Below, in pieces: positions 6,369-63,171 of a stretch of DNA of 64,000 nucleotides. Numbering within the stretch: position 1 is the first letter of the stretch; every line of letters starts with the position of its first letter. The notes under the pieces are model-generated. The model had not been told where the DNA came from. It worked only from the letters and a program-made list of their open reading frames with translations, and did no database searches. A program made the position numbers and the translations under genes. Source of the DNA: Arthrobacter koreensis (GTDB taxonomy: Bacteria; Actinomycetota; Actinomycetes; Actinomycetales; Micrococcaceae); assembly GCF_009193255.1 (NCBI RefSeq), contig NZ_WACG01000001.1, forward strand, positions 744,001 to 808,000. The letters are read 5' to 3'.

Positions 6369-6414
6369 GAGGCTCTGCCCCCGCCTCATCGAGATGAGGC
6401 GGGGGCAGAGCCTC
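6369..6414. terminator. Perfect hairpin after purM (probable terminator)
   Basis: Two perfect 21-base arms (6369-6389 and 6394-6414) around a CGAG loop, starting eight bases after the purM stop. The arms are G/C rich and have no poly-T tail. Its centre, CCTCATCGAGATGA, is repeated at the start of the next palindrome, so the two elements are related in sequence. Confidence 0.65.
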
Positions 6415-6475
6415 ATCGAGATGACAGAAACTGCCCGTATCAGCCTTGATACGGGCAGTTTCTGTCATCTCGATG
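6414..6475. repeat. Palindromic intergenic repeat, copy 1 (convergent gene junction)
   Basis: Perfect 29-base inverted arms (6414-6442, 6447-6475) with loop GCCT. The core ACAGAAACTGCCCGTAT is shared exactly with copies at 44524-44587 and 63116-63171. It lies between purM (rightward) and the DUF3073 gene (leftward), so it could end transcription from both sides, but it lacks a T-tract. Sequence conservation beyond pairing suggests a repeat family rather than an ordinary terminator. Confidence 0.85.
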
Positions 6476-6510
6476 GAGGGGAAGCGAAGGGGAATTACCG
6501 CCTTTAACGC

Positions 6511-6548
6511 CCTTCAGCGGATCCACCGTGCTGGTGATCCGCTGAAGG
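6511..6548. terminator. Hairpin downstream of the DUF3073 gene
   Basis: CCTTCAGCGGATC pairs with GATCCGCTGAAGG, with the inner CACC/GGTG extending the stem past a one-base bulge. It sits about 40 bases beyond the stop of the leftward DUF3073 gene. There is no clear T-run on that strand, so termination is a guess from position. Confidence 0.5.
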
Positions 6549-6586
6549 AGGGCAATCAGTTTGCCGAAGAATGGGTTTGCCGGCAT

Positions 6587-6823
6587 CTATCCGATGCGGC
6601 GGGAACCCTCATCATCATCGTCTTCATCGCCAAATTGATCTGCGTACTTATCCTCGTACGCCGAGTAGTCCGGCTCGGCCGGTTCCTCGGGATATCGACT
6701 CGACGGACGGCTCGAGGGTCCTGACAGCTCACGCTGCAGGGCTGAGTAGTCCGTGGCAGGAGTGAAGTACTTCATCTCGCGTGCCTGCTTGGTTGCTTTT
6801 GCCTTTTGACGGCCGCGCCCCAT
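6587..6823 (-). CDS. DUF3073 family small protein
   Basis: A 78-residue protein with the highly basic start MGRGRQKAKATKQAREMKYF followed by TPATDYSALQREL and an acidic tail (EDKYADQFGDEDDDDE). This is the DUF3073 pattern of actinobacteria, which is often next to purM. Function is unknown; the charge split suggests nucleic-acid or ribosome contact but nothing in the sequence proves it. An AAGGGGG Shine-Dalgarno lies seven bases before the ATG. Convergent with purM. Confidence 0.88.
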   Translation of the reverse strand: MGRGRQKAKATKQAREMKYFTPATDYSALQRELSGPSSRPSSRYPEEPAEPDYSAYEDKYADQFGDEDDDDEGSRRIG

Positions 6824-7097
6824 GGCGTGACCCCCTTTTTGCGTCGATCCGGAGGTGGTCGCTCGGGCAGGAGAGCGAGGCCCCGGAATATTTGGTCAAT
6901 TTGTCGTAACTACAGGTTACATGTTTTCCCGCTGGGTTGTGCCCCTCAGGACCCGCAGGCGCACTCAACTTCCCAGTTTAGTCCTTCTCTCCCGCAGGTG
7001 CGTACTGCGCCGCGACCTGCAAATTCGCTAAAGTCAGGGAGGAACAGATGCCGCGGGACACTTTTGCGGCCATGGACAGGGAGGACCGGCGTTCACC

Positions 7098-9026
7098 ATG
7101 AGCGATCAAAAGAGGACACCGCGGCAGGGAACAGCCCAGCCGGGGAAGTCCCCGCGCCCTTCCACCCCGAACGGAAGTACCGCGCGCCCCAAGGGATCCA
7201 GTGCCAAGCCGCCCACACCGCGAACTGCACCCCCGGTCCGGAACAACCCTGCTACAAGGAGCATTCCAGTTATTAAGCCCCAGCTGTCCGCCTCCAACGG
7301 GCGCTCCGGCCCCACCGACCCGGAGCGGGGCGCCGGTTCAGCCAAGCCCGCCAAACCTGCCAAGTCCGGAAAATCAGGACGCGGCAAGGGTTCCGGAGCA
7401 CGGCGTCCGGCCGCCGCCAACCAGGGTGGCGTCCAGAAGGGCCTGCTGGGTTCAAAGGGCGGAGCCAAGCGTCCCGCTGTCCGCACCGGCCCCGGAGCCA
7501 AGAAGAATTCGAGTCCGGCGGACGAACCGTCATCGACTCCGACCGGGCCCGAGGCTGCCGGGACGAACGCCGCCCCCGGAACCGGCAAAAACGCCGCTGC
7601 TGCAACCGGCGACGGCCGAACTGCGCAGACCAGTGCCGCCGCACCCGCCCAGTCCCCGGAAACAGGTGCAGGCGCCGAAACGACCGCGGCTGCCGTTCCC
7701 GACCTGTCCGCCCACACCGACGCCCCGGCCTGGCTGTCCACCGACGGCGGGCACGACGCCGAGCTGTGGGACGGCGCTTTCGACGCCGAGTCGCAGGACG
7801 CGGCCCCGCCGGAGCCCAAAGTCATTCCCGCTGATGACGTTCACCTCGACGAACCGTCGCTGGAGACGCCGGCCATCAGCACCGATGCCGCCGAGGCGGC
7901 TTCCCTGCCGGAAACCGCCGCCGAGGTGCGGGCAGTCTCCGAGGAGGCTGCCGAAGCCGGTAAGCAGGCAGGAATCTCCGAGCCCGCCCCCGAAGGCACG
8001 GAAGTCGCCGTCGAGCCGGGGGCAGGGCTCACGGAGCTGGAACCCGCCGCAGCGGATGACACGCAGGGCGAACCGTCGAGCGAATCCGCCGTAGACGGCG
8101 ATTCGAACACTGACACGGCCGCCGGCCAGTCCAAGGACGGATCCGGCGATAAGCCATCAGACGAGTCGGCCGATGATGACGCCGAGGCCGCGGACGCTCC
8201 CGTGGAGGCTCGCCCTCAATCATCCCCGAAACCTGCCGAGGCACCTGCCGAGGACAACGGCTCGAACGAGGATGCCACGGAAGCCGGCAGTGCCAAGGAC
8301 AGCCCCCAGGATGAAGACGATGCTGCGTCCAAGGCGGCCGGTCCGCGGATCCATACATCGACTATCCAGGGCGGCAGCTCCGACGTCGCGGCTCCCGTCA
8401 CTGACTCCTTCGAGTCGCTGACGCTGAGCAAAAAGGATCCCGATGACACGGGCGTAGTCCACACGGTGAACCCTTCCGGTGCCAGTGCCGTCCCGGCGGA
8501 CTCTCGCCGTGCGCGGCGGACCCGTGAGGCCGAGGAAGCAGCCGCCCGCGGCAAGGGCCCGGGCAAGACCACCCGCACGCTGGTGCTGCTGGGGTCAATC
8601 CTCATTGTGGTGCTGCTGGGCATCTGGCTCGCCACGGTGATCGCGGACAGCAACCGGGGTGAGGGTGTCCTGGAGGATTCGGTATCTCCGGTCGATCTGG
8701 AGGCAGGCGCCTGCCTGCAGGACTTCCAGAGCGTGAATGCCGAGGTGACCGTTGTGACCTGCGAGACCGCCCACAATGCACAGCTGGTCGCCACCTCCAC
8801 CTACGCTGATTCCGACACCTTCCCCGGCACCGATGCGCTGGCCGCGAAGGCAGAAGAGGTGTGTTCGTCCGTCATCTACACGGATGCGGCGTCGAAATAC
8901 ACCGATCTTGAACTCAACCGCGCGGTTCCCACACAGAATTCATGGAACACCGGTGACCGGCGGGTTGACTGCTTTGTTGTGGCGCCAAGTGACGAGCTGA
9001 CCGAATCCCTCATTGTTCAGCCATGA
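7098..9026 (+). CDS. Septum-formation-domain membrane protein with long disordered N-terminus
   Basis: A 642-residue protein. Roughly the first 490 residues are low-complexity: a basic, proline/lysine-rich stretch (about 1-150), then acidic Ala/Glu/Asp/Ser-rich sequence. A single membrane helix follows at about 493-515 (TRTLVLLGSILIVVLLGIWL). The outer domain (about 530-642) contains GACLQDF, VVTCETAHNAQLVA, EEVCSS and RVDCFVV, with four cysteines spaced as in the Septum_form family. A type-II topology places the disordered part in the cytoplasm and the Cys domain outside. GGGAGG about 12 bases upstream supports ATG 7098. The role in division is inferred from the family name only. Confidence 0.8.
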   Translation: MSDQKRTPRQGTAQPGKSPRPSTPNGSTARPKGSSAKPPTPRTAPPVRNNPATRSIPVIKPQLSASNGRSGPTDPERGAGSAKPAKPAKSGKSGRGKGSGARRPAAANQGGVQKGLLGSKGGAKRPAVRTGPGAKKNSSPADEPSSTPTGPEAAGTNAAPGTGKNAAAATGDGRTAQTSAAAPAQSPETGAGAETTAAAVPDLSAHTDAPAWLSTDGGHDAELWDGAFDAESQDAAPPEPKVIPADDVHLDEPSLETPAISTDAAEAASLPETAAEVRAVSEEAAEAGKQAGISEPAPEGTEVAVEPGAGLTELEPAAADDTQGEPSSESAVDGDSNTDTAAGQSKDGSGDKPSDESADDDAEAADAPVEARPQSSPKPAEAPAEDNGSNEDATEAGSAKDSPQDEDDAASKAAGPRIHTSTIQGGSSDVAAPVTDSFESLTLSKKDPDDTGVVHTVNPSGASAVPADSRRARRTREAEEAAARGKGPGKTTRTLVLLGSILIVVLLGIWLATVIADSNRGEGVLEDSVSPVDLEAGACLQDFQSVNAEVTVVTCETAHNAQLVATSTYADSDTFPGTDALAAKAEEVCSSVIYTDAASKYTDLELNRAVPTQNSWNTGDRRVDCFVVAPSDELTESLIVQP

Positions 9027-9054
9027 CCTGGGAAACGCCCAGTAAAAAGCAATA

Positions 9055-9101
9055 GAGCAGTAAAAAGGGAGGCTCGCACTGAGCCTCCCTTTTTACTGCT
9101 C
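9055..9101. terminator. Bidirectional terminator between the septum protein and clpB
   Basis: Two perfect 21-base arms (9055-9075 and 9081-9101) around GCACT. The A-rich left arm and T-rich right arm (TAAAAAGGGAGG / CCTCCCTTTTTA) give a T-tract in both directions, the classic bidirectional Rho-independent design for convergent genes. Confidence 0.93.
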
Positions 9102-9122
9102 CGCGTCAGGCAGGGAACGGAA

Positions 9123-11747
9123 TTAGCGGACGGGTGCCGCCGCTTCGACGGTCAGGCCCGGGTCTGCCAGTTCGTCTCCCGCGACTTCCGGACGGTCCAC
9201 CAGCACGGTATCTCCGTCTGAGATACGTCCGGCAAGGATTCCCTTGGCCAGCTTGTCCCCAATCTCCCGCTGGACCAGCCGGCGAAGCGGACGGGCGCCG
9301 TAGGCCGGGTCGTATCCGGTCAGTGCCAGCCATTCGCGGGCGGCATCCGTGACCTCCAGGGTCAGGCGGCGATCCCGCAGCCGGGTAGCCAGTGCCTGGA
9401 CCTGCAGGTCCACGATCTCCGACAGCTCCTCCAGGTTCAGCGGATCGAAGAGAATTACGTCGTCCAGGCGGTTCAGGAATTCGGGCTTGAAGTTCGCGTT
9501 GACCATGTTCATGACCGATTCGCGCTTCTGTTCCTCCGTCAGCCCGGGGTCCACCAGGAACTGTGAACCCAGGTTCGAGGTGAGGATCAGGATCACGTTG
9601 CGGAAATCCACGGTGCGTCCCTGGCCGTCCGTGAGCCTGCCGTCGTCGAGGACCTGCAGCAGGATGTCGAAGACATCCGGGTGCGCCTTTTCAACCTCGT
9701 CCAGCAGGATCACCGAGTACGGGCGCCGACGGACCGCTTCCGTAAGCTGCCCGCCTTCCTCGTAGCCGACGTATCCGGGAGGGGCACCGACCAGCCGGGA
9801 AACCGTGTGCTTCTCGGCGTACTCGCTCATATCCAGCCGGACCATGGCACGCTCGTCGTCGAAAATGAACTCGGCGAGAGCCTTGGCAAGCTCGGTCTTG
9901 CCGACGCCGGTGGGGCCCAGGAAGAGGAAGGAACCGGTGGGGCGGTCCGGGTCGGCAACTCCGGCGCGGGAACGCCGGACGGCGTCCGAGACGGCGGCAA
10001 CTGCTTTGGTCTGGCCGATGAGCCGCGATCCGATGACCGACTCCATGTCCAGCAGTTTCTGCGATTCGCCCTGCAGCATCCGTCCCGCCGGAATACCCGT
10101 CCACGACGAGACCACTTCGGCGATATCGTCCGCGGTGACTTCCTCGGAGACCATCAGCTCACGGGCTCCGTCTCCGAACTTGTCTTCCTCGGCTTCCTGC
10201 GCGGCGTCGAGCTCCTTCTGCATCGCCGGGATCTCGCCGTACAGGATGCGGGAGGCTTCCGTGAGGTCGCCGTCGCGCTGTGCCTTTTCCGCCAGGGACC
10301 GGAGTTCGTCGATCCGGGCCTTGATGTCACCCACGCGGTTCAGTCCGGCTTTCTCAGCTTCCCAGCGGGCGTTCAGGGCAGCCAGCTGCTCCTTCTTGTT
10401 CGCCATGTCTTCGCGCAGGACTTCCAGGCGTTCCAGCGAGGCCTCGTCCGTTTCACCGCTGATGGCGAGCTCTTCCATGGTCAGGCGGTCGACGGCGCGG
10501 CGCAGTTCGTCGATCTCCTCCGGTGCGGAGTCGATCTCCATCCGCAGCCGGGATGCTGCCTCGTCCACCAGGTCGATGGCCTTGTCCGGCAGCTGGCGGC
10601 CCGTGATGTAGCGGTTGGACAGAGTGGCTGCGGCCACGAGGGCGGAGTCTGCAATGGCCACCTTGTGGTGGGCCTCGTAGCGCTCCTTGAGCCCGCGGAG
10701 AATACCGATGGTGTCCGGCACGCTGGGTTCGCCGACGAACACCTGCTGGAAGCGGCGCTCGAGGGCGGCATCCTTCTCGATATTCTCCCGGTACTCGTTG
10801 AGGGTGGTGGCGCCGATCAGGCGCAGTTCCCCGCGGGCCAGCATGGGCTTGAGCATGTTGCCCGCATCCATCGATCCTTCTGCGGCCCCGGCACCGACGA
10901 CGGTGTGGAGTTCATCAATGAAGGTGACTATCTGGCCCTCGGAGTTGGAGATTTCCTCCAGGACAGCCTTGAAGCGTTCCTCGAACTCGCCGCGGTACTT
11001 GGCGCCGGCAACCATGGACCCAAGGTCGAGCGAGAGCAGCGTCTTGCCGCTGAGGCTCTCCGGGACGTCCCCGGCCACGATGCGCTGGGCGAGTCCTTCC
11101 ACTACGGCCGTCTTACCCACGCCCGGCTCACCGATGAGGACGGGGTTGTTCTTGGTACGCCGGCTCAGCACCTGGATGACACGGCGGATTTCCGAGTCCC
11201 GCCCGATCACGGGATCCAGTTTTCCGGCCCGGGCCATTTCGGTGAGGTCGGTGCTGAACTTCTCCAGCGCCTGCAGGGTATTCTCCGGATCTGCATTGGT
11301 CACTTTGCGGTCTCCTCGCACACTGGGAAGGGCTCCGGCCAGGGCATCGTGGCCGGCATTATTGTCCCGCAGGGCCTTACCGGCGGGACTGTTGTCCACG
11401 GACAGCGCCAGCAGCAGGTGCTCGGTGGATACGTAGGCATCTCCAAGCTGGGCTGCCTCCTGCTGCGCGGTGTTGATTACCTGCAGCAGCGGCCGCGAGA
11501 ACTGCGGCTGCTGCACGGACGAGCCGGAGCTGGAGGGAAGGTCGTGGATGGCACTGCTGGCGGCGACGCTGACCGCGTCCGGATTGGCTCCTGCTGCCTT
11601 AAGAAGCGCGACAGCCACCCCCTGCCGCTGGTCCATGAGAGCCTTCAGCAGGTGCGCGGGCTCAATCTGGGGGTTACCGGCGGTGGAGGCGTTCATGGCT
11701 GCAGCCTGCAGCGCTTCCTGGCTCTTGGTGGTGAATTTGGTTTCCAC
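9123..11747 (-). CDS. clpB: ATP-dependent disaggregase chaperone ClpB
   Basis: ClpB is a hexameric AAA+ machine that extracts polypeptides from aggregates with DnaK. From GTG 11747 the protein has 874 residues. It begins [13 protein letters not shown] and has an N-domain (to about 150), NBD1 with Walker [14 protein letters not shown], a coiled-coil middle domain (about 400-520, rich in Leu/Glu/Arg) and NBD2 with [17 protein letters not shown]. An in-frame ATG lies 12 codons upstream, but AAGGAG sits six bases before the GTG and the family N-terminus begins there. A HAIR operator about 150 bases upstream puts it in the HspR regulon. Confidence 0.97.
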
Positions 11748-11892
11748 GGCGGGCTCCTTCTCAGGCTCGGATAAACCGTTCAAGCTCCCGGCAGATTCAG
11801 CACCATCCCGCTGGAACGGGCTGCGCGGCCCAGGTGCCGTTTCCTTTATGGAACGCCTGGCCCACTCGCTTCATCCAACCGTACTCAACTAA

Positions 11893-11913
11893 CTTGAGTG
11901 TACTTCACTCAAC
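11893..11913 (-). promoter_or_regulatory. HAIR operator (HspR site) upstream of clpB
   Basis: CTTGAGT, seven bases, then ACTCAAC matches the HspR-associated inverted repeat CTTGAGT-N7-ACTCAAG with one mismatch. A further ACTCAA half-site lies at 11883-11888. HspR is encoded in this window at 30057-30584. Confidence 0.88.
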
Positions 11914-11961
11914 CCCAGTCTGCAAAGTTATCCACAGGCTAGACTGAGCCCTGACCTGCGT

Positions 11962-12564
11962 TTATTCAGGTCCAGGCAGAGGTGCATGCTGCCGCTCAAA
12001 CTCCTCCCGGACGCGCTCCCACTCGGCATTGCGCGCGTGGTAAAGCTCCCGCTCCTCCGCCTCCATCTGGGCCCAGCTCACAAGGTTTGATGAGAGCTCC
12101 CGGCCCTGGACGTGCGCTTCCAGGCGGTCTATAAAGAATTCCCATCCTGGTCCGGCCGCCCATTCTCCTGCGTCTGGGTCGATGACTGCGAACTTTTTGC
12201 GAACCGAAGCATAGAGCAGCTCCAGGCGGGTTGAACCGTCAATATCCGCCAGATGGATCTCAAGTTCCCCTGGATTGCCGTGCGGCGGAATCCATGTCAC
12301 GGTCAGCATGCGCGGCGGATCGCACCGCAGAATGGTCCCCGTGGAGAAACCCGCCATTTCATAATCGCCCCCGCGCCTCAGTTCTCCGCTCGGCTGGGCA
12401 AAATAGGCCGCTATCCGGGCCGGATCAGACAGGGCGCTCCAGACCTCCCCGATGGGTTGGTGCAGATCCCGCCCGATGACCAGCATCCGGGCGTGTCCGG
12501 CCTGGATCTGGCGGAGACCAAAAGACCGCTCGGTTTCGGATAGCAACACGTCCAACTCGGACAT
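11962..12564 (-). CDS. SRPBCC (AHSA1/START-like) family protein
   Basis: A 200-residue protein with the START-like fold pattern of AHSA1-type proteins: GRDLHQPIGEVWSALSDPARIAAYF at about residues 30-55, then RRGGDYEM, PPRMLTVTWIPP and a C-terminal helix with WEFFIDRLEAHVQG. The family binds hydrophobic ligands or contacts chaperones; the ligand here is unknown. No ArsR regulator lies beside it, unlike many relatives. GAAGGAG five bases before the ATG supports the start. It lies upstream of clpB on the same strand, but the HAIR site between them indicates separate promoters. Confidence 0.78.
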   Translation of the reverse strand: MSELDVLLSETERSFGLRQIQAGHARMLVIGRDLHQPIGEVWSALSDPARIAAYFAQPSGELRRGGDYEMAGFSTGTILRCDPPRMLTVTWIPPHGNPGELEIHLADIDGSTRLELLYASVRKKFAVIDPDAGEWAAGPGWEFFIDRLEAHVQGRELSSNLVSWAQMEAEERELYHARNAEWERVREEFERQHAPLPGPE

Positions 12565-12887
12565 TCCCGCTCCTTCAGCTTGCCGTCAGCACGGTCCCAA
12601 AGGAGGCTTCCGGATCGATCCAGCGGTCCGGCCGGACGTCCCCGAAACCGGTCAATGTGAGGTGCGCCACGTGTTCCGCACTCTCTTGGAGGTTAGCAGG
12701 ACAGCGGCGGCCCGGACAGGGCCGGAGGGATAGCCGGCCCAACGGGACGATGAGCTTTCTCCCAGGCGGCCCCAGTGCCCGCAGTTGACCCAGGTCACAC
12801 AAATCCGCCTGCCATATGGGCTCTTGCTAGGCTAAAGCCCACGACTAAGGGACCTTACTTTTTATTCACACAGCCTTGAAGGATGTC
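12565..12887. other. Divergent intergenic region before the choline cluster
   Basis: About 320 bases between the SRPBCC gene (left) and the BCCT transporter (right). A TAGGCT at 12828-12833 is a plausible -10 for the transporter, giving a leader of about 45 bases; no convincing -35 was found. No BetI gene or clear BetI-type operator is visible. Small open frames here lack coding character. Confidence 0.4.
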
Positions 12888-16483: not shown

Positions 16484-16488
16484 GTTCC

Positions 16489-43364: not shown

Positions 43365-43964
43365 CTACACGTCCGCCGTGCGTCCGGACGCGAAGGCCGA
43401 GAGCACCCCGGTCTTCGCCAGTGCCCGCACCGCCAGCCAGGACAGCAGCCCTGCCAGCAGCAGCCCGGAAACCATCGCGAAGACGGTGTACAGCACCTGC
43501 CACTGGAAGGCCCATTCCGGCATGTACAGGATTGATTCGCTCACTCCGAGGAAGAGGCCGGAACCGAGGCCTGCGAGCAGCGCCACGGGAAGGGTGAATT
43601 TCCGGTACAGGAAGAGTAGGAACACAAGTTCGGCGCCCAGGCCCTGGATGGCTCCGGAGAGCAGGACGGAAAGGCCAAACTGGGTTCCCAGCACGCCGGA
43701 GACGGCGGCAGCGAGGACTTCGCAGTACAGCGCGGCTCCGGGCTTGCGGATGATCAGGGCGCCCAGGACACCGGCGATCAGCCAGCCGCCGGTGTAGAGC
43801 CCGCCCAGCGGCGGGAAGGCCACGAACGCGGCGGCAACTCCGCCGTAGGCCAGTGACCAGGCCCAGAAAACTACCCCGATGGCCACGCCCAGTACGGATG
43901 CTACGACGATGTCCACCACCCGCCACGAAGAGCGTACGGGCTGGACTGTTTGGGTTTGCTGCAT
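43365..43964 (-). CDS. ykoE: ECF transporter substrate-binding (S) component, thiamine/HMP type
   Basis: A 199-residue membrane protein of the YkoE family, with about five or six helices. The typical segment is GTQFGLSVLLSGAIQGLGAELVFLLFLYRKF. YkoE-type S-components import thiamine or its hydroxymethylpyrimidine part; the TPP riboswitch just upstream supports this. AGGAGGAA lies five bases before ATG 43964. Confidence 0.92.
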   Translation of the reverse strand: MQQTQTVQPVRSSWRVVDIVVASVLGVAIGVVFWAWSLAYGGVAAAFVAFPPLGGLYTGGWLIAGVLGALIIRKPGAALYCEVLAAAVSGVLGTQFGLSVLLSGAIQGLGAELVFLLFLYRKFTLPVALLAGLGSGLFLGVSESILYMPEWAFQWQVLYTVFAMVSGLLLAGLLSWLAVRALAKTGVLSAFASGRTADV

Positions 43965-44014: not shown

Positions 44015-44024
44015 GCACCCCTGA

Positions 44025-44150
44025 GATCTCGACTCCCTTCGCCGGTACTAACCGGAGCAGGTTCGAGGGTCTGCGGCTTGGTCCGCACTCTCAGCGCCCG
44101 AAAACCGGCGTCCGGAATGCTCCGGAGCCGGGAAGCGGCGCTCCCCTGTC
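44025..44150 (-). ncRNA. TPP riboswitch (THI element)
   Basis: On the minus strand the conserved aptamer blocks appear in order: GGGGAGC, GGGCGCTGAGAG, GACCCTCGAACCTG, then CCGGTTAGTACCGGCGAAGG and GGAG. These are the TPP-binding segments. The element lies upstream of ykoE and would turn off thiamine/HMP uptake when TPP is plentiful. Confidence 0.95.
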
Positions 44151-44250
44151 GTGTGTATGCGTGGTCCACTGTACACGCAGTGACGCGTGTAATCCGGGCG
44201 CGGCAGGTAGCGTAGGGGGAAACACCAACGCACTAGACCAAGGAGCACTT

Positions 44251-44514
44251 ATGAACCTGATCCTGAAACTGCTGGGTACCGGTGTCAGCGTGGGCGCCGG
44301 ACTGGCCTCGGCAAAGATCCTGGACTTCATCTGGACCAAGGCCACGGGCAACGAGCCGCCCAAGGATAAGGACGGTGCACTGGAAGCGAGCCTGCGCTCG
44401 GCCGTCATCTTCGCGCTGGTTTCCGGCGCGGTGAGCCAGGCTATCCGGGTGCTGACCAACCGCGGCACGCAGCGCGCCATCGCCCGTTACAACCGCACTC
44501 CCGAGGTCGTTTAG
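44251..44514 (+). CDS. DUF4235 family membrane protein
   Basis: An 87-residue protein with MNLILKLLGTGVSVGAGLAS, the KILDFIWTKATG segment and a second hydrophobic helix SAVIFALVSGAVSQAIRVL, ending TNRGTQRAIARYNRTPEVV. This is the DUF4235 pattern of actinobacteria, an uncharacterised two-helix membrane family. AAGGAG before ATG 44251 sets the start. Convergent with the Mrp operon, with repeat copy 2 between them. Confidence 0.88.
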   Translation: MNLILKLLGTGVSVGAGLASAKILDFIWTKATGNEPPKDKDGALEASLRSAVIFALVSGAVSQAIRVLTNRGTQRAIARYNRTPEVV

Positions 44515-44523
44515 CCTCCCCCT

Positions 44524-44587
44524 CCATCGAGATCACAGAAACTGCCCGTATGAGCGTTCATACGGGCAGTTTCTGTCATCTCGATGG
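44524..44587. repeat. Palindromic intergenic repeat, copy 2 (convergent gene junction)
   Basis: Arms of 30 bases (44524-44553, 44558-44587) around GCGT, with one mismatched pair in the CATCGAGATCACAG / CTGTCATCTCGATG part. The core ACAGAAACTGCCCGTAT is identical to copies 1 and 3. It lies between the DUF4235 gene and mnhG, which face each other. Confidence 0.87.
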
Positions 44588-44601
44588 ATTTGCGAGGGGG
44601 G

Positions 44602-45138
44602 TCAGCCTTCGCGGCTGCGCCCCGGCGGCAGCTTCCCGGTTTCGGCTTCGGCACGGGTCCGGGCCAGTTCATCATCGCTGAGTTCACCGGTGTAGTAGCT
44701 GCCGTCCGGTTCCTGGCCTGGATCGTCATCCACCTTCGGATCCGCGTCCGTGCTCCCGGCGGCCTGTTCCTCGGAGGCCTCGAACATCAGCTGCTGGGCA
44801 CGCTCAACGACGTCGTCCAGTTCATCGATGGTCAGCAGCTCGGGACGCAGGTGCTTGGTGCGGTACCCGGCCCGGCCAACCATGTGGGCGGACACCGGCG
44901 CGGTGAGCAGCATGAAGATCCAGCACAGCGCCAGGACCGGCAGCAGGACCCAGCTGCGGAACTCGACGGCCATGGCCAGCAGGAAGAGCAGCAGGCCAAG
45001 CACCTGCGGCTTGGAGGCGGCGTGCATCCGGCTCATCAGGTCAGGGAAGCGGGTCAAGCCAATCGCCGCGGCGAGGGACATGGTGGCACCGCCCAGCAGG
45101 AGGGCCGCCACAATAACGTCAATCACAGTCTCGTTCAT
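44602..45138 (-). CDS. mnhG: Mrp antiporter subunit G
   Basis: A 178-residue membrane subunit with three helices: VIDVIVAALLLGGATMSLAA, then the G-type LTRFPDLMSRMHAASKPQ, then VLGLLLFLLAMAVEFRSWVL. About 60 hydrophilic C-terminal residues are extra. Last gene of the Mrp Na+/H+ antiporter operon, two bases after mnhF. Confidence 0.93.
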   Translation of the reverse strand: MNETVIDVIVAALLLGGATMSLAAAIGLTRFPDLMSRMHAASKPQVLGLLLFLLAMAVEFRSWVLLPVLALCWIFMLLTAPVSAHMVGRAGYRTKHLRPELLTIDELDDVVERAQQLMFEASEEQAAGSTDADPKVDDDPGQEPDGSYYTGELSDDELARTRAEAETGKLPPGRSREG

Positions 45139-52637: not shown

Positions 52638-52640
52638 CAG

Positions 52641-53672: not shown

Positions 53673-53678
53673 CTTCTA

Positions 53679-53684
53679 AAAATA
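53679..53684 (-). promoter_or_regulatory. -10 box, leaderless spacing, dcd
   Basis: On the minus strand TATTTT, six bases, then GTG 53672. Confidence 0.5.
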
Positions 53685-53692
53685 GCGCATCC

Positions 53693-54544: not shown

Positions 54545-54700
54545 CGGTGCTCCATGTGTGGCTGGTGATTGGGCCCATGCCCTGAGTACTGCGGTGCTGG
54601 CATTCACGGTAGCCGCAGCACCGTGGCAACGGCTTCTGCGCCACGGCAGGGCTGTGGAAGACTGGCGGTTTATGCATCCGACCCTCCAGAGGAGGTCCCC

Positions 54701-55201: not shown

Positions 55202-55334
55202 CCCCGGGCAGCCGGCGGAAGCCTCCGTACAGGTTGCCCTTTGGCCAAGACGGCCCCGTTTTCCGGCCCCGGCCTTGCTGTGGGGGTGGCGGCGTCTACT
55301 CTGAGGAAACTCACTACAGATGGAGGGCTGTAAC

Positions 55335-56399
55335 GTGACCTGTTTCCCGGCTTCCCCAACGAACTGCTCAATCGTTCCGCCGTTTCTGCTCTCCCGGATC
55401 GCGGAACGTCCCGACCGGCTCGCTGCTGCCGCCGAGGCTGCCCGGCGTACGCTCATGGAGTTCAGCTCTGTGGCAGAAACCAGGCAGCTCGGCCGCACTG
55501 CGAAGGCGCCGTCGTCCGGCACCGCCTTCAGCCCCAAGCTCCGCCGTACGGTCTACGACGCCATGCAGCGGCAGGAACTGCCCGGCAGGGAGGTGCGCGC
55601 GGAGGGCTCGGCTTCGACCGGGGATCCCGCCGTCGACGAAACCTATGACGGGCTGGGAGCCACCTATGCCCTGTATGAGGACGCTTACGGGCGGTCCTCG
55701 GTGGACGGGGCAGGGCAGCCGCTCCTGGCCACCGTCCACTACGGACGCGACTATGACAATGCGTTCTGGGACGGGGCGCAGATGGTCCTGGGGGATGGGG
55801 ATGGCGAAGTCTTCGAACGGTTCAGCAAATCGCTGACGGTGATCGGCCACGAACTGACTCACGGCGTCATCCAGTACACAGCCAAGCTGGTGTACCAGGA
55901 CCAGGCCGGCGCGCTGAACGAATCGGTAGCGGATGTCTTCGGCAGCCTGGTGGAGCAGAAGCTACTCGGACAAACCGCCGCGGACGCCTCCTGGCTGGTT
56001 GGCGAAGGCCTCTTCACGCCGGAGGTCAGCGGCTCCGCCCTCAGGTCCCTGGCCGCTCCGGGAACGGCGTACGACGACGACGTGCTGGGCAAGGATCCGC
56101 AGCCTGCGGACATGTCCGGTTACATAGAAACCACCTCGGACAACGGCGGCGTGCACCTGAACTCGGGAATCCCGAACCACGCCTTCTATCTCGCCTCCGT
56201 GCGGCTGGGCGGCTATGCCTGGGAACGCGCAGGCCAGATCTGGTACGACACAATCACGGAGCCCAATTTCCCGGCGGACTGCACCTTCCCGGTTTTCGCG
56301 GCTGCCACCATTACGGCCGCTGAAAAGCGCTATGGGGCCGGGAGCGAAGAAAGTTCCGCTGTGCAGGCTGCATGGCAAGAGGTTAATGTCATGGTATGA
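55335..56399 (+). CDS. M4 family metallopeptidase, protealysin-like
   Basis: A 354-residue zinc protease of the thermolysin family. HELTH (His172, Glu173, His176) and the third ligand Glu196 in NESVAD have the thermolysin spacing. FVVGR-like and [12 protein letters not shown] belong to the catalytic fold; [13 protein letters not shown] holds the C-terminal His. There is no signal peptide. The start [12 protein letters not shown] resembles the short propeptide of protealysin-like enzymes. The start is GTG 55335, with GGAGGG seven bases upstream. The stop overlaps the downstream inhibitor gene. Confidence 0.88.
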
Positions 56400-56659
56400 G
56401 ACTGGTTGTGGTGCGTACCGGAGGCATCGCTGGAATGCGGCGCACCTGGAGCAGCGAGGTGAGTTCCGAGGAGGCTGAGCAACGCTGGCTTCCCCTGCTC
56501 CAGGAGCCGCCCGAGGAACCTGCCGGCGGTCAGGACCGATTCACGTATGAGATCAGGGTTGGCCAGCAGGCCGTCACCATTCCCGAGACGTCCCTCACCG
56601 GGCAGTGGCGGGAACTGGTGGAGCGTGCTCGGGACGGCGGAGAGGCCCGCCGGGCCTAG
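56396..56659 (+). CDS. Probable protealysin inhibitor (emfourin-like)
   Basis: An 87-residue cytoplasmic protein overlapping the protease stop (ATGA). [50 protein letters not shown] resembles emfourin, the inhibitor encoded beside protealysins in Serratia. Pairing with the M4 gene is the strongest evidence. It probably keeps the leaderless protease inactive inside the cell. Confidence 0.72.
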   Translation: MRLVVVRTGGIAGMRRTWSSEVSSEEAEQRWLPLLQEPPEEPAGGQDRFTYEIRVGQQAVTIPETSLTGQWRELVERARDGGEARRA

Positions 56660-56727
56660 GATTGCCCGCCGCCGGTGGCCTCCCGGGACACCGCAAACAG
56701 CTTTGTGCTGCTGATGCGAAAGGCATG

Positions 56728-56733
56728 TAAAGT
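56728..56733 (+). promoter_or_regulatory. Possible -10 for tRNA-Gly
   Basis: TAAAGT 32 bases before the tRNA, with TTGTGC 19 bases further up. Spacing is slightly long; low confidence. Confidence 0.35.
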
Positions 56734-56765
56734 GGTTTCCTGTGCCGGTGCTTGTCCGGCGCCGT

Positions 56766-56839
56766 GCGGGCGTAGCTCAATGGTAGAGCGCTAGCTTCCC
56801 AAGCTCGATACGCGGGTTCGATTCCCGTCGCCCGCTCCA
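56766..56839 (+). tRNA. tRNA-Gly (anticodon CCC)
   Basis: A 74-base cloverleaf with encoded CCA: acceptor GCGGGCG/CGCCCGC, D stem GCTC/GAGC, anticodon loop TTCCCAA (CCC, decoding GGG) and T loop TTCGATT. The anticodon stem CTAGC/GCTCG has one T-C mismatch. Open frames on the opposite strand are shadows. Confidence 0.96.
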
Positions 56840-56850
56840 CCACAGGGAGA

Positions 56851-56885
56851 AAAGGCACCTCCGGCCCCAGGCCGGAGGTGCCTTT
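56851..56885 (+). terminator. Terminator after tRNA-Gly
   Basis: AAAGGCACCTCCGGC and its exact complement at 56871-56885 around CCCAG, followed by CTTTG. It lies 11 bases after the tRNA. Confidence 0.85.
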
Positions 56886-56932
56886 CTTTGCCGGATGGCA
56901 GACCACGTGCCGGGCGTACACTTGAACACGCT

Positions 56933-57352
56933 ATGAACCGCAAAATGTTTAAGTCCAAGATCCACCGTGCCACCGTCACCCATTCCAACCTCCACTACGT
57001 AGGCTCCGTGACCGTGGACGAGGACCTGCTCGACGCAGCAGACATCCTTCCCGGTGAGCTGGTCTCGATAGTTGACGTGGACAACGGATCCCGGCTTGAA
57101 ACCTACACAATCGCCGGCGAGCGCGGGTCCGGCGTTATCGGCATTAACGGCGCGGCCGCGCATCTGGTCAACATCGGGGACAAGGTCATCCTGATTACCT
57201 ATGCGGACATGAGCACCGAAGAGGCGCGTGCCTATGTTCCCGCCGTCGTCCATGTGGACGGCAGCAACCGCATTATCGAACTCGGCACCGATCCAGCCGA
57301 GGCGGTCACCCCGGGCACACAGCGCCCGCCGTTCGCAGCTTCCCGGCACTGA
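56933..57352 (+). CDS. panD: Aspartate 1-decarboxylase
   Basis: PanD makes beta-alanine for pantothenate. The 139-residue proenzyme contains [26 protein letters not shown] with the self-cleavage site Gly24-Ser25, which yields the pyruvoyl group. [18 protein letters not shown] is the conserved C-terminal block. An ATG four codons downstream is an alternative start. No panB or panC is in the window. Confidence 0.95.
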
Positions 57353-57593
57353 CCTACGGGTCCGCCACTTGGATTCCGGCGCCGGAGGAGGCGCCTGCAC
57401 GCCTCCTTCTACCCTCAGCGGACACGGTTAGATAACAGTTCGCTCCCCTGCCACCTGAGCTTTCACGGGTTTGCCCGCGGAACTGTGGCGTAATGCACCT
57501 TGTTGGGCATATGGTCGATCGAAAGGTTGCTGAGCTTCCTTTCGCGGAACATCACTGAAGTCCGTGCCTACGACGAGGTGGAGGCATATACCC
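57353..57593. other. Intergenic region before the sugar ABC operon
   Basis: About 240 bases without a gene. At 57520-57544 lies the inverted repeat CGAAAGG-N11-CCTTTCG, a candidate operator for the transporter operon. No regulator gene is adjacent, and no clear -35/-10 pair was found. Confidence 0.4.
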
Positions 57594-58916
57594 ATGCCAC
57601 AAGGTGCAAAACATCACGGCAGACACCGGATAAGGAAGTCTGCAGCTGCGGGGTTCGCCCTCGCCGTCGGCGCCACCCTGCTGGCGGGCTGCAGTTCGGA
57701 TTCCGGTTCCACGCCTACCCTGACGTGGTACATCAACCCGGATGACGGCGGACAGGCCGAACTGGCGAAGCGCTGCACTGACGCTTCGAACGGGGAGTAC
57801 ACCATCGAGACTTCCCTGCTTCCCAACGATGCCCCGTCGCAGCGGGAGCAGCTGGCGCGGCGGCTCGCCGCCGGTGACACCAGCATGGACATCATGAGCC
57901 TGGATCCGCCCAACGTGCCTGAATACGCGGAACCGGGCTATCTGGCTCCCATTCCCGATGATGTGCGCGAACGTACCACCGCCAACGTTCTTGAGGGCGC
58001 CCTTGCGGGCGCCACCTGGAAGGACGAGGTTGTCGCCGTACCGTTCTGGGCAAACACCCAGATCCTCTGGTACCGCAAGTCCGTAGCCGAGGCAGCGGGA
58101 CTGGACATGAGCCAGCCCGTCACCTGGGACCAGCTGATGGAAGCCGTAGCCAGCCAGGACAAGTACCTGAGCGTGCAGGGTGCCCGGGCCGAGTCGATGA
58201 CCGTCTGGGTGAATGCCCTGATCGAATCCGGTGGCGGGCAGATCGTGGAGAACCCGGACGCTTCCGCCGACGAGATCCGGCTGGGCATCGATTCCGATGC
58301 CGGCAAGAAGGCTGCGGAGATCGTCTCGAAGATTGGCAAGGACGGACTCGGCGGCCCGGGCCTGCCCACCCAGACCGAGAACTTCTCAATGATCCAGTTC
58401 CAGGGTGACAAGGGCGCCTTCATGGTCAACTACCCCTTCGTCTGGCCCGCCACCAATGCGGCCGTCGAGGAAGGGTCCCTGCCCGCTTCCCTGATCGACG
58501 ACATTGGGTGGGCCCTCTACCCGCAGGTCAACGAGGGAGAGGAAACCGCTCCCCCGCTGGGCGGCATCAACCTGGGCGTCGGTTCCAAGAGCAAGCACCC
58601 GGACCTGGCGTACAAGGCAATCGAGTGCATCGTCAGCCCCGAAAACCAGGCCTACTACTTCGCATCGAACGGTAACCCGCCGTCCAACCCGGACGCCTAC
58701 AACGATCCGGAAGTCGTTGACACCTTCCCCATGGCCGGAACCATCCGTGAATCGCTGGACCTGGCAAAACCCCGCCCGCAGACTCCGTACTACAACGAAA
58801 TCTCCACCGGCATCCAGCAGACCTGGACGCCGCCGCAGGACGTCAATCCGGACACCACACCGGGAACCAGCCAGCAGTTCATTCTTGAGGTCCTAAAGGG
58901 AGAGAGGCTGCTATGA
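57594..58916 (+). CDS. ABC importer solute-binding lipoprotein (LpqY-like)
   Basis: A 440-residue binding protein with a basic start, a hydrophobic core and lipobox LLAGC, so it is anchored outside the membrane. The fold is of the maltose/trehalose type: LTWYINPDDGG, DIMSLDPPNVPEYAEPGYLAPI, WANTQILWYRKSV, and a C-terminal block TPYYNEISTGIQQTW. These features resemble LpqY, the trehalose receptor of mycobacteria, but the ligand cannot be fixed from sequence alone. GGAGG nine bases upstream sets the start. It overlaps the first permease. Confidence 0.88.
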   Translation: MPQGAKHHGRHRIRKSAAAGFALAVGATLLAGCSSDSGSTPTLTWYINPDDGGQAELAKRCTDASNGEYTIETSLLPNDAPSQREQLARRLAAGDTSMDIMSLDPPNVPEYAEPGYLAPIPDDVRERTTANVLEGALAGATWKDEVVAVPFWANTQILWYRKSVAEAAGLDMSQPVTWDQLMEAVASQDKYLSVQGARAESMTVWVNALIESGGGQIVENPDASADEIRLGIDSDAGKKAAEIVSKIGKDGLGGPGLPTQTENFSMIQFQGDKGAFMVNYPFVWPATNAAVEEGSLPASLIDDIGWALYPQVNEGEETAPPLGGINLGVGSKSKHPDLAYKAIECIVSPENQAYYFASNGNPPSNPDAYNDPEVVDTFPMAGTIRESLDLAKPRPQTPYYNEISTGIQQTWTPPQDVNPDTTPGTSQQFILEVLKGERLL

Positions 58917-59875
58917 GTACGTCAGTGGAAACACGTGCCGCCGCCGGCGGCAGCCCCAAAGGGCGCAAACCCGGGCTGAGCGACAGGGCCAGGGCTGAAC
59001 GGCGGCTTGGATTCTGGCTTGCCGGCCCCGCGTTCATCATCATGCTGGCCGTGACTGCCTACCCGATCCTGCTGGCTCTGTGGGACTCCCTCTTCAAGTA
59101 CCGCCTCACAGCGCCGGATGACAGGCAGTTCGTCTTCCTGAGCAACTACGCCACCATCCTCACGGACGAAGTGTTCTGGCGGGACCTGCTGGTGACCGTG
59201 CTCATCACGGTGGTCACCGTGATCATCGAGCTGATCCTCGGGTTCGCCCTGGCCATGGTCATGAACAGCGCGCTGAAAGCCGTCCGCGGCTGGCTGCGGA
59301 CGGCCATCCTGGTGCCCTACGGCATCATCACCGTGGTGTCGGCCTTCGCCTGGTTCTACGCCTTCGACATCAACTCCGGGTACGTGAACCACTGGTTCAG
59401 CTGGGTTCCGGGCATCAGCACGGACCTGAACTGGTTCGCGGACTTCGGCACCGCCATCACCGTGATCATGGCTTCGGAGATTTGGAAGACGACGCCGTTC
59501 ATCTCGCTGCTCCTGCTGGCCGGACTTGCCCAGGTTCCGGGGGAACTGACGGAAGCGGCGGAAGTCGACGGCGCCACCTGGTGGCAGCGCTTCACGCGGG
59601 TGATCGTGCCGAACATGAAGGCCGCCATCATGGTGGCAGTCCTGTTCCGCGCATTGGACGCTTTCCGCATCTTCGACAACGTTTACATCATGACCAAGGG
59701 AGCGTACGGCACTGAGACGCTGTCCCTCCTGGCCTACCGCACATCCATTACCCGGTTGGAGATCGGCATGGGTTCGGCGGTTTCCGTCCTGCTGTTCCTC
59801 TGCGTCATCCTGATTTGCTTCATCGCAATCAAACTCTTCAAGGTGGACCTGACCGGCGCACGAGGGGGCAACTAA
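58913..59875 (+). CDS. Carbohydrate ABC importer permease 1 (SugA/MalF-like)
   Basis: A 320-residue permease with six helices after an N-terminal cytoplasmic stretch, and the EAA loop EAAEVDGATWWQRFTRVIVP near residue 220. It pairs with the second permease and the ATPase. The stop is immediately followed by permease 2. Confidence 0.92.
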   Translation: MSTSVETRAAAGGSPKGRKPGLSDRARAERRLGFWLAGPAFIIMLAVTAYPILLALWDSLFKYRLTAPDDRQFVFLSNYATILTDEVFWRDLLVTVLITVVTVIIELILGFALAMVMNSALKAVRGWLRTAILVPYGIITVVSAFAWFYAFDINSGYVNHWFSWVPGISTDLNWFADFGTAITVIMASEIWKTTPFISLLLLAGLAQVPGELTEAAEVDGATWWQRFTRVIVPNMKAAIMVAVLFRALDAFRIFDNVYIMTKGAYGTETLSLLAYRTSITRLEIGMGSAVSVLLFLCVILICFIAIKLFKVDLTGARGGN

Positions 59876-60718
59876 ATGGAATCGTCACCGATACGCAGGC
59901 GCATCACCTGGACCATCATTTCCATCCTGGTGATCGTCTACGCACTGTTCCCCGTCGCATCCATCTTCGCGACGTCGTTCAAGCTCCCCAGCGATCTCAC
60001 CTCCGGCACGTTCCTGCCGACCACCTGGTCCACGGTGAACTACGAACAGATCCTGGTTGGAGACGCCCAGGAACTGTTCCTCTCCGCGCTGCGGAACTCG
60101 ATCGGCATTTCGCTGATCGCCACGTTCATCGCCGTCGTGCTGGCCACACTCTGTGCCTACGCCATTGCCCGGCTGGACTTCCCCGGCAAGAAGCTCGTGC
60201 TGACCACCGCACTCGGCGTCTCGATCTTCCCGGTCATCTCGATCGTGACCCCGCTGTTCAACCTCTGGCGGAACATTGGCCTCTATGACACATGGCTCGG
60301 GTTGATCATCCCCTACCTCTCCCTCACCCTGCCCATCTCCATCTGGACCCTGGCTGCGTTCTTCCGCCAGATTCCCTGGGAGCTGGAGCAGGCAGCGCAG
60401 GTCGACGGCGCCACCACCTGGCAGGCGTTCCGGAAGGCGATCGTTCCGCTCGCCGCCCCCGGCGTCTTTACGACGGCAATCATCGCGTTCTTCATTGCCT
60501 GGAATGACTTCGTGTACGGGATTTCGCTTACTTCAACCTCAGCTGCACGGCCGGTGCCTGCGGCTCTGGCCTTCTTCACCGGCGCTTCCCAGTTCGAAGC
60601 GCCAACCGGAGCAATTTCCGCAGCCGCGATCATTGTGACCATCCCGGTCGTTGTGCTTGTACTGCTGTTCCAGCGACAGATCGTTTCCGGACTAACCCAG
60701 GGCGCCGTCAAGGGCTAG
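59876..60718 (+). CDS. Carbohydrate ABC importer permease 2 (SugB/MalG-like)
   Basis: A 280-residue, six-helix permease with EAA loop EQAAQVDGATTWQAFRKAIVP near residue 172. It starts directly after permease 1 and precedes the ATPase by about 36 bases. Confidence 0.92.
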   Translation: MESSPIRRRITWTIISILVIVYALFPVASIFATSFKLPSDLTSGTFLPTTWSTVNYEQILVGDAQELFLSALRNSIGISLIATFIAVVLATLCAYAIARLDFPGKKLVLTTALGVSIFPVISIVTPLFNLWRNIGLYDTWLGLIIPYLSLTLPISIWTLAAFFRQIPWELEQAAQVDGATTWQAFRKAIVPLAAPGVFTTAIIAFFIAWNDFVYGISLTSTSAARPVPAALAFFTGASQFEAPTGAISAAAIIVTIPVVVLVLLFQRQIVSGLTQGAVKG

Positions 60719-60754
60719 CCCCAGACGCACGGTACTAGAAAAGGAGCCATGAGC

Positions 60755-62032
60755 ATGGCATCTATTACGCTCAACCATCTCGTCAAGAAGTACGGGGACG
60801 GCTTCCCGGCTGTCAACGACATCAGCCTGGACATTGCCGACGGTGAGTTCATCATCCTGGTGGGCCCCTCCGGCTGCGGCAAGTCGACCCTGCTTCGGAT
60901 GATCGTGGGCCTGGAGGACATCACCTCCGGTGACCTGCTGATCAACGGGGAGCGCGTCAATGACAAGGCTCCGCGTGACCGGAACCTTGCCATGGTGTTC
61001 CAGAACTATGCCCTGTACCCGCACCTCACGGTGTTCGAGAACATCGCGTTCCCCCTCCGGCTGAACAAGGGGAAGTACAGCGATGAGGAAGTGAAGAGGC
61101 TGGTCAACGACGCAGCCGCCACCCTCGAGCTGACCGAGCACCTGGACCGCAAGCCCGCCAACCTCTCCGGCGGGCAGCGGCAGCGTGTGGCCATGGGCCG
61201 CGCGATCGTCCGCCAGGCAGACGCGTTCCTGTTCGATGAACCGTTGTCCAACCTGGATGCCAAGCTCCGCGGGCAGATGCGTTCGGAGATCTCGCAGATG
61301 CAGCGCCGCCTGGGCGTCACCAGCATCTACGTCACCCACGACCAGACCGAAGCCATGACCCTGGGTGACCGGGTGGCCGTGCTGAAAAAGGGAATCCTGC
61401 AGCAGGTAGCTTCGCCGCGGGAACTCTACGAGCAGCCGGTCAACCTGTTCGTTGCCGGCTTCATCGGATCGCCGTCGATGAACTTCCTTCCGGCCACCAT
61501 CAAGGAGGGCAACGTCCTTGAAACTGCCGTGGGAGACATCCGGATCCCCGAAGACAAGGCCGCCAAGGCCGCGGGCAAGAAGGTAGTCCTGGTGGGTATC
61601 CGGCCGGAATTCTTCGAGGACGCGTCCCTTGTTGAGGGGGACAAGAAGGCCCACGGATCCACCTTTACCGCGCCGATCACCCATACCGAGTGGCTGGGCA
61701 ACGAACAGTACGGCTACATCCATTTCGACCCGACACCGGAAGTCCGCGAGCTGCTGGACAACCTGGCCCGGGACATGGACGCTGACGAGCTCCGTCCGCA
61801 GATTGTGGTGACGCTCGACGCCGCCAGCCGGGTACGCGGCGGACGCGAGGCAGAGCTCTGGCTGGACACCCGGAAGATCCATATCTTCGATCCGGAGACC
61901 GGTGAGAACCTGACCCGCGACCCCGAGGCGGGGGCGGAACTCACCGAGGAAGCCAACGAGCGTCGGGCCGAAGAGATCGCCATGGCACGCGAGGATGTTC
62001 GGGAAGCGGCAGGTACCGCCGCAGACTCCTAG
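60755..62032 (+). CDS. Sugar ABC importer ATPase (SugC/UgpC/MsmK-like)
   Basis: A 425-residue ATPase with Walker A GPSGCGKST, signature LSGGQRQRVAMGRA, Walker B-region DEPLSNLDAKLR, and a C-terminal TOBE-like regulatory domain (IRPEFFEDASLVEG, THTEWLGNEQYGYI). AAGGAG lies eight bases before ATG 60755; an ATG at 60749 is too close. It is the last gene of the importer operon. Confidence 0.93.
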   Translation: MASITLNHLVKKYGDGFPAVNDISLDIADGEFIILVGPSGCGKSTLLRMIVGLEDITSGDLLINGERVNDKAPRDRNLAMVFQNYALYPHLTVFENIAFPLRLNKGKYSDEEVKRLVNDAAATLELTEHLDRKPANLSGGQRQRVAMGRAIVRQADAFLFDEPLSNLDAKLRGQMRSEISQMQRRLGVTSIYVTHDQTEAMTLGDRVAVLKKGILQQVASPRELYEQPVNLFVAGFIGSPSMNFLPATIKEGNVLETAVGDIRIPEDKAAKAAGKKVVLVGIRPEFFEDASLVEGDKKAHGSTFTAPITHTEWLGNEQYGYIHFDPTPEVRELLDNLARDMDADELRPQIVVTLDAASRVRGGREAELWLDTRKIHIFDPETGENLTRDPEAGAELTEEANERRAEEIAMAREDVREAAGTAADS

Positions 62033-62102
62033 CCGTCCCGCAGCCGGCCGGAGGAACCGCAGCACGCGGGCCCTCCGGTCGGCTGCGCACGGAAACGGCA
62101 GG

Positions 62103-62108
62103 TAACGT
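62103..62108 (+). promoter_or_regulatory. -10 box, leaderless spacing
   Basis: TAACGT, six bases, then GTG 62115. Confidence 0.5.
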
Positions 62109-62114
62109 AAGAGC

Positions 62115-63098
62115 GTGCAGGCATCATCACCGGTAATCAAGGCAGTCACTATCTGGCTCACTGCCCTCATGCTCTCCATCGCGGCCGCCGTCGTCGTGAT
62201 CTGGCTCGTGAACGCCAAGGTCTACGGGCCGGCAAAGCAGGTGGAGAACTACTTCCAGGCGCTCCAGGACGGAGACGGCGCTCTGGCCCTTGGAATCCTC
62301 AACGCGGAGGTGCCGGAGGCAAACGCTGCCCTGCTGGACGCGGACGCACTGCGTGCCTCCACTGCAGGCCTTGAGGTGCTCGGCATGGAGGAGGTCTCCA
62401 CGTCCATGGACGGGCGCACCAACGTGGTGGTGAACTACCGGCTTGACGGAGCCGAGCAGCAGTCCACCTTCGAGCTGGAGCAGACCGGCACCCGGTGGAT
62501 GTTCTTCGACGAGTGGTCTTTCCGGCCGCAGGACCTGCCCACCGTGCGCGTCAACGCGCCCAACCAAAACGAGGCGCAGCTGAACGGAGCCCGGGTCCTG
62601 CTGCCCGAGGGCAGCAACACCTTCGCCGCGTTCTACCCCTCGCGGGTGGCGGCCTCCTACACCAGCGGGTACTTCGAGGCACCGGAGCAGTCCGCTGTCC
62701 TGGCCGGGCCGGGCGACTCAGTGGACCTGACGCTGCGCAGCCAGGCTACCGAGGAACTGGTCAAGACGGTTGATGCCCGGGTGCGCGAGTTCCTGGACAA
62801 CTGCGCCGGCGAGCAGAACCGCCTGGCACCTCCGGGCTGCCCGTTCTACCACCTCACGGACAACCGCGTGGAGCCCCCCATCACCTGGGAGATCCTGGAG
62901 TACCCCACGGTGGAGATTTCTCCGGCTGACGGCCACTGGGTACTGGCCCCGCTGCAGGGCAAGGCCCGCGTGAGCGCCACCCAGACCGATCTCTTCTCGG
63001 GCGCGCAGAGCCCGCTCATTGAGGAGAAGGACTTCACCTTCGGCGCCCGGCTCTCCGTGACCGACGCCGGAGTGTCGCTGACCGCCGTCATCGACTAG
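62115..63098 (+). CDS. Membrane-anchored protein of unknown function
   Basis: A 327-residue protein with one helix at about residues 11-32 (VTIWLTALMLSIAAAVVVIWLV) and the rest outside. The first outer segment (YGPAKQVENYFQALQDGDGALALGIL) has an NTF2-like/DUF4878 look and is followed by a beta-rich domain with two Cys (EFLDNCAGEQNRLAPPGCPFYHL). No family was recognised firmly. It begins with GTG and a leaderless -10 box, and ends just before repeat copy 3. Confidence 0.7.
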   Translation: MQASSPVIKAVTIWLTALMLSIAAAVVVIWLVNAKVYGPAKQVENYFQALQDGDGALALGILNAEVPEANAALLDADALRASTAGLEVLGMEEVSTSMDGRTNVVVNYRLDGAEQQSTFELEQTGTRWMFFDEWSFRPQDLPTVRVNAPNQNEAQLNGARVLLPEGSNTFAAFYPSRVAASYTSGYFEAPEQSAVLAGPGDSVDLTLRSQATEELVKTVDARVREFLDNCAGEQNRLAPPGCPFYHLTDNRVEPPITWEILEYPTVEISPADGHWVLAPLQGKARVSATQTDLFSGAQSPLIEEKDFTFGARLSVTDAGVSLTAVID

Positions 63099-63115
63099 CT
63101 CCCCCCACACACAAA

Positions 63116-63171
63116 CGAGATAACAGAAACTGCCCGTATCCGGCCGGATACGGGCAGTTTCTGTTATCTCG
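63116..63171. repeat. Palindromic intergenic repeat, copy 3 (convergent gene junction)
   Basis: Perfect arms of 26 bases (63116-63141, 63146-63171) with GGCC between them. Shared core ACAGAAACTGCCCGTAT. The arm reads GATAAC where copy 1 reads GATGAC, with the matching change on the other arm. It lies between the unknown membrane protein and the leftward NHL-repeat gene. Confidence 0.87.

Follow-up and report, generated by a model that had tools for sequence, protein, structure and literature searches.

The 64,000-nucleotide stretch of DNA from the soil bacterium Arthrobacter koreensis considered here (the window; G000:C5:744001-808000 of a 3.55 Mb genome) carries three long palindromes, each lying between the 3' ends of two convergent genes and none assigned to a strand. 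Copy 1 (6414..6475) is a perfect palindrome with arms at 6414-6442 and 6447-6475, and it separates the gene of an AIR synthase related protein (5245..6360, plus strand) from a gene for a 78-residue DUF3073 protein (6587..6823, minus strand). Copy 2 (44523..44588; arms 44523-44553 and 44558-44588, with one mismatch) lies between a DUF4235 gene (44251..44514, plus strand; its longest reading begins at 43879) and a gene for a Na+/H+ antiporter subunit (PhaG_MnhG_YufB; 44602..45138, minus strand), while copy 3 (63116..63171), whose GGCC centre continues the symmetry through the axis, is flanked by a gene with no Pfam match (62115..63098, caller start 62169, plus strand) and an NHL repeat gene (63179..63883, minus strand). 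All three belong to dialect A of the family described below. A 17-base core is exact on each arm of every copy, on the plus strand in the left arms (6424..6440, 44535..44551 and 63123..63139) and on the minus strand in the right arms (6449-6465, 44560-44576 and 63148-63164), giving six exact matches in the window against 0.09 expected by chance. The places of the palindromes, their shared core and the single uncompensated pair in copy 2 had been reported in the initial annotation and are confirmed here. The three copies head the ranked inverted repeats of the window (I1-I3, complementarity 94-100%), and folding of either strand gives -48.9 to -59.3 kcal/mol (z -12.2 to -14.5).

The suggestion that these copies represent a genome-wide element is borne out. 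When the genome was searched with the core at up to 3 mismatches, 44 forward and 47 reverse matches were obtained (91 together), compared with 0 and 2 in the reversed sequence, which served as the control for core and pattern searches throughout. Inspection of 53 core places gave 49 two-armed sites, some of them imperfect and one with a one-base shift, two halves adjacent to insertion sequences (IS) and two chance-like matches inside genes, so that 51 of the 53 are genuine dialect A copies; wherever both arms were matched, the arm starts are exactly 25 bases apart. The copies are many, they are not scattered at random inside genes, and none lies wholly within a called gene, although four of the 51 run 9 to 37 bp into the end of one. 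The convergent arrangement had been described as invariable, which is correct for the window; genome-wide, however, the 51 copies comprise 25 convergent, 21 tandem, four divergent and one unresolved. Copy 1 is itself counted as tandem in this tally because our gene caller, a simple codon model, missed the minus-strand DUF3073 gene that makes its gap convergent, and since the caller misses small genes, some other tandem or divergent labels may likewise be convergent.

For a wider sample we pooled 165 distinct copies from seven genomes, using 80 of the 84 stretches of a genome scan (four unlisted stretches were left out); both IS-split halves were excluded, as was any copy that departed from the family pattern by more than 4 mismatches. 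In the pool, 88 copies are convergent, 59 tandem and 12 divergent, with a neighbour missing for six, and a single copy is flagged within a called reading frame, its counterpart in our genome being free of such a flag. By site, 32 of 69 are convergent, 27 tandem, seven divergent and three unresolved; the excess of convergent over divergent sites (p = 7e-5) is found although convergent and divergent gaps do not differ in number (61 and 61 in 400 kb). The elements lie close to stop codons, at a median distance of 14.5 bp for dialect A. Most tandem copies of our genome are near the upstream stop, the next start being a median of 67.5 bp from the element in tandem gaps (44 copies), and 22 of the 25 convergent gaps that hold a copy measure 113 bp or less.

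The family occurs in three dialects, A (CAGAAACTGC), B (CAGTTACGGC) and C (CAGAAAGTGC); A is over-represented in the pool, since its pattern was the one used to fetch most loci. Ten of the 29 genus genomes contain the strict pattern. A looser family pattern is found at 87 places in our genome, about one site per 41 kb, and at 67 in G006, 66 in G004, 52 in G014, 23 in G018 and 10 in G003; it marks 10 of 295 genomes in a family sample (one of 32 genera) and three of 396 in an order sample (one of 109 genera), with none in the reversed controls. Dialect B occurs in six of the 29 genomes (31 places in G001, 28 in ours, 18 in G004, 16 in G014, 10 in G006 and one in G011), so that A and B are found together in one genome, and its placement resembles that of A (10 of 17 copies convergent, median stop distance 23 bp). 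Dialect C is carried by G002, G003 and G018, with a few copies in genomes of A and B. Carriers among the genome-scan matches listed include A. gandavensis, A. citreus, A. sp. Edens01 and A. pullicola, and copy 1, as sole query, had no match in plasmid and phage collections at E 0.01. In a midpoint-rooted tree of eight proteins from 14 genomes, the carriers fall into two clades, of which the A/B clade has the element-poor genomes G005 and G012 as neighbours. On the chromosome of one complete genome, G001, copies of A and B (50 positions, one weak match with 3 mismatches excluded) show enrichment near the replication origin (Rayleigh p 0.005). The origin was identified by eye through a DnaA-like gene at 261 and the DnaN- and GyrB-like genes that follow it. 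A further palindrome family, D (CAGATAACGGG[CG]TTAT with a 9-base centre), was seen in 12 of the 295 family-sample genomes, all of this genus, with up to 17 places (G009), one each in G007 and G018 and none in the genome of the window; it was noticed in G028, as in other Arthrobacter genomes that are poor in A, B and C (loci L276-L295 and L296-L305).

Both arms of the palindrome change together. The pooled consensus starts with CGAGA on both arms, the two arms carry the same dialect in 157 of the 165 copies, and the pairs of the box CAGNNANNGC are near-invariant at C, A and G (-20 to -18) and at G and C (-12 and -11), each in 160-165 of 165 copies. The covariation noted from the window copies holds on the larger set: with one copy taken from each of the 69 sites, Watson-Crick pairs make up 88.9% of stem cells, compared with 77.2% in shuffles (maximum 78.9%), and 195 stem cells show double changes compared with 76 (maximum 96). 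In comparisons of orthologues, which are not independent of one another, box positions -17, -16 and -13 have 56 double and 2 single changes, and positions -22, -21 and -10 have 43 double and 70 single changes; free linker positions covary too. Such strong stem covariation is by itself no proof of RNA. The symmetry continues across the axis, at the place of a would-be RNA loop: the central four bases form a palindrome at 32.5 of the 69 sites on average, whereas 6.8% of intergenic 4-mers do so and, among control hairpins, 9 of 122. When each site is represented by a single fixed copy, 31 centres are palindromic, and part of this symmetry may reflect shared ancestry since 18 of them read GCGC; at the 51 sites with other centres, 13 are palindromic (GGCC 6, CGCG 3, AGCT 3, ACGT 1). 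This continuation of the symmetry speaks for a cause at the level of DNA rather than for a plain RNA terminator, and the tests of loop centre, wobble pairs and T-run together favour such a cause, though not decisively.

Comparison of the same gene junctions between species shows that the elements persist while their sequence changes. Of the 69 pool sites, 46 occur in at least two species (sharing being counted within the pool), and at 14 of these the box differs between species, one case being uncertain because its A/B contrast joins two neighbouring A. citreus copies; at 10 of the 14, both arms of every copy agree in the box, and at one junction two genomes have A, a third has B and a fourth has C. 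Along 400 kb of aligned chromosome, our 19 elements correspond to 14 shared, one empty and four unmapped junctions in G004, to nine, five and five in G001, and to three, eight and eight in G018. Orthologues that have switched box agree at 12.4 of 20 inner bases, compared with 10.9 for random pairs (32 pairs, non-independent, p 0.0004), and same-dialect orthologues agree at 18.5 of 20 (138 pairs); the likeness of the switched orthologues leans towards change in place rather than replacement. The only strict copy of G012 is identical to an A. pullicola copy and occupies a junction common to four other genomes, which points to loss in the G012 lineage rather than recent gain. At the copy 2 junction, G012 and G005 have no element, and an unrelated hairpin of the GGTTTCCC type followed by a T-run is found there (L177 near 10056-10099; L178); six further genomes have neither. 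This hairpin was rejected as a family of its own, occurring at one place in one of 29 genomes.

We consider it somewhat better than an even bet that the palindromes are a clade-specific family of dyad-symmetric DNA elements, similar to repetitive extragenic palindromes (REPs), which were sited behind stop codons and have stayed there, with their arms matched by a process acting on DNA. In this mechanism, elements of 56-62 bp would settle just 3' of stop codons and remain, the box CAGNNANNGC would be under sequence-specific constraint, and the arms would be kept identical mainly at the DNA level, either by arm-to-arm copying through template switching during replication or by a symmetric protein that reads the whole palindrome. 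Template switching has been proposed to create and maintain stems, in the available text of PMC8794818, and the hairpins discussed there resemble the present ones in their multibase changes on both arms; they concern RNA genes, however, whereas the palindromes here are dispersed and symmetric also at the centre. Dialect A, with its order of A-tract, GC-rich stem, loop, stem and T-tract, may in addition end transcripts that arrive from both sides, a role suggested by its sequence.

Several observations weigh against this explanation. Spacer inversion is reported as a template-switch signature in the accessible part of PMC8604942, and our spacer comparisons gave 57 direct, 19 inverted, 12 tied and 82 symmetric cases. 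Retention of the inner bases after a box switch, at 17 of 20 in the best case, is within the null range (null maximum 17). There is one clean alignment of presence and absence (72 bp), in which no target duplication is seen and which loss fits equally well, and neither a mobility mechanism nor a recognising protein was found. The terminator scan made 0, 0 and 3 calls at the window copies, those at copy 3 on the minus strand only. Mismatches in the sense RNA of 59 tandem copies are divided equally between G.U and A.C (26:26; 10:10 with one per site), compared with 55:35 in control hairpins (p 0.045), but the difference between family and controls is not significant (Fisher p 0.22).

It is doubtful, in comparison, that the palindromes are simply ordinary bidirectional intrinsic terminators which share their sequence by descent and are selected only as RNA hairpins. 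Their location at 3' ends and the A-tract, GC-rich stem and T-tract of dialect A are indeed what such terminators have, and compensatory stem changes are likewise described for Bacillus cereus terminators in the available text of PMC5381666, where G.U is given as the commonest intermediate. The short convergent gaps leave scant space for another terminator; a different hairpin is present in four of 26 family gaps and in 71 of 222 other convergent gaps (four genomes, non-independent; Fisher p 0.11), and the unrelated hairpin at the copy 2 junction of the two species lacking the element fits the same idea. Termination does not, however, require a fixed sequence at about 50 sites, and RNA pairing cannot select a palindromic loop centre, of which the control hairpins show no trend. 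The sense RNA of tandem copies also has no G.U preference, although in this it does not differ significantly from the controls. The absence of a T-tract claimed in the initial annotation is true outside the palindrome, but TTTCTGT stands within the arm directly after the GC-rich stem, and the best 7-base window on the 3' side holds 5 T in 89 of 128 dialect A copies and 4 in 39. In dialect B, which is placed similarly, the corresponding window has 2-4 T and never more than 4 (17 copies). The bidirectional terminator proposed in that annotation is therefore plausible for dialect A alone, and the family is set apart from known terminators by its fixed sequence, its symmetric centre, the lack of a visible sense-strand G.U preference and a dialect without a T-run.

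A similarly low probability attaches to the palindromes being candidate sites at which a symmetric DNA-binding protein of nucleoid, boundary or recombinase type would bind or cleave, the drift of its specificity having produced the dialects. The near-invariant box pairs, the joint change of the box on both arms, the dyad symmetry through the axis and the enrichment towards the origin in G001 would all be consistent with such a protein. For such a protein-binding site, which the initial annotation also proposed, no candidate protein was found, though, the coexistence of dialects A and B in one genome is awkward for a drifting specificity, and covariation of the free linker positions is contrary to independent reading of the half-sites. 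The idea of a DNA boundary at 3' ends, which a putative co-evolving factor would recognise as a single symmetric unit and which would need no transposase like RAYT (REP-associated tyrosine transposase), also seems to us rather unlikely; if it were true, drift in the preference of the factor would rewrite both arms in place at fixed junctions and generate lineage-specific dialects. It is very improbable that the elements are miniature inverted-repeat transposable elements consisting of the terminal repeats alone of a larger IS. Palindromic ends, the restriction to one genus and differences in presence and absence would suit that origin, but apart from the two chance-like gene matches our genome has, at up to 3 mismatches, no A arm outside the family places that could be an IS end, no target duplication is seen at the single clean empty site, and copy 1 is unmatched in the plasmid and phage collections. 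Least credible of all is a role as sequence-specific DNA uptake sequences. In Neisseria and Haemophilus, uptake sequences likewise occur as inverted pairs within terminators, and lineage dialects and inverted pairs at gene ends are shared by the present family. Known uptake sequences are, however, far denser than one site per 41 kb, and the frequent single copies in coding DNA that they would imply were not found: at up to 3 mismatches there are no solitary A arms in genes, since 51 of the 53 places are gap palindromes or IS-split halves and the other two are the chance-like matches. This reading was rejected.

Returning to the dyad-symmetric DNA elements that we favour, their best filing is as REP-like, minus the REP end tags and the RAYT transposase; the REP-like label of the initial annotation fits in position and copy number and fails on these two features. 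Like the GTAG and CGTC families of REPs and REPINs, they are short dispersed extragenic palindromes that mostly occupy convergent or tandem gaps and lie near the stop codon upstream (PMC3733652, available text), and several subfamilies per genome and targeting by IS are further likenesses (PMC3733652 and PMC1525189, likewise). They differ from REPs and REPINs in being long and nearly perfect, in their symmetric centre and in the dialect differences that affect both arms at fixed sites. Neither a GTAG nor a CGTC tag is in the consensus of the 165 copies, as judged by eye, the flanks of single copies not being searched. The RAYT family (PF01797, Y1 transposase) is found in none of the 29 genus genomes, the controls being positive in five of 14, but since CGTC REPs are also said to have no dedicated transposase (PMC3733652, same text), this lack alone is not new. 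Partner genes were sought between three close pairs of copies, and by eye these hold ordinary transport and metabolic genes. Among the literature titles listed, none describes this Arthrobacter family, and the one REP survey that names Arthrobacter gives, in its available text, only a row of counts for one species (PMC12306157).

Close to their axis, two copies of the family are cut off next to an IS-like end that both share (GGTGTTGCAAC...), with only one half of each seen, at L078:156-1274 with a junction near 1316 and at L067 near 431. The gene beside the cut copy in L078 has HTH_38 and rve domains, a combination which we take to be that of IS30-type transposases. Insertion sequences are reported to enter REPs at the symmetry axis (PMC1525189, available text). 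Mini-hairpins within a single arm were not noticed by eye, nothing having been computed on this point. Copy 1 is adjoined by a second, unrelated perfect inverted repeat of 22 bases (6369-6414). At the Rfam gathering score, the window matches tRNA and a thiamine pyrophosphate (TPP) riboswitch only and no palindrome family, and each of the 62 weak matches in the region of copy 1 is below that score. The riboswitch (44017-44157, minus strand) overlaps the upstream part of the longest DUF4235 frame, so this gene probably starts later than its longest reading.

Covariation is usually taken as proof of RNA structure. Here the symmetry crosses the loop, so that copying or reading of DNA probably maintains it. 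Since the family occupies scores of natural sites across several species, it allows termination to be distinguished from protein recognition and from template switching. With these palindromes, one more REP-like family is on record, in an actinobacterial genus that has no RAYT gene.

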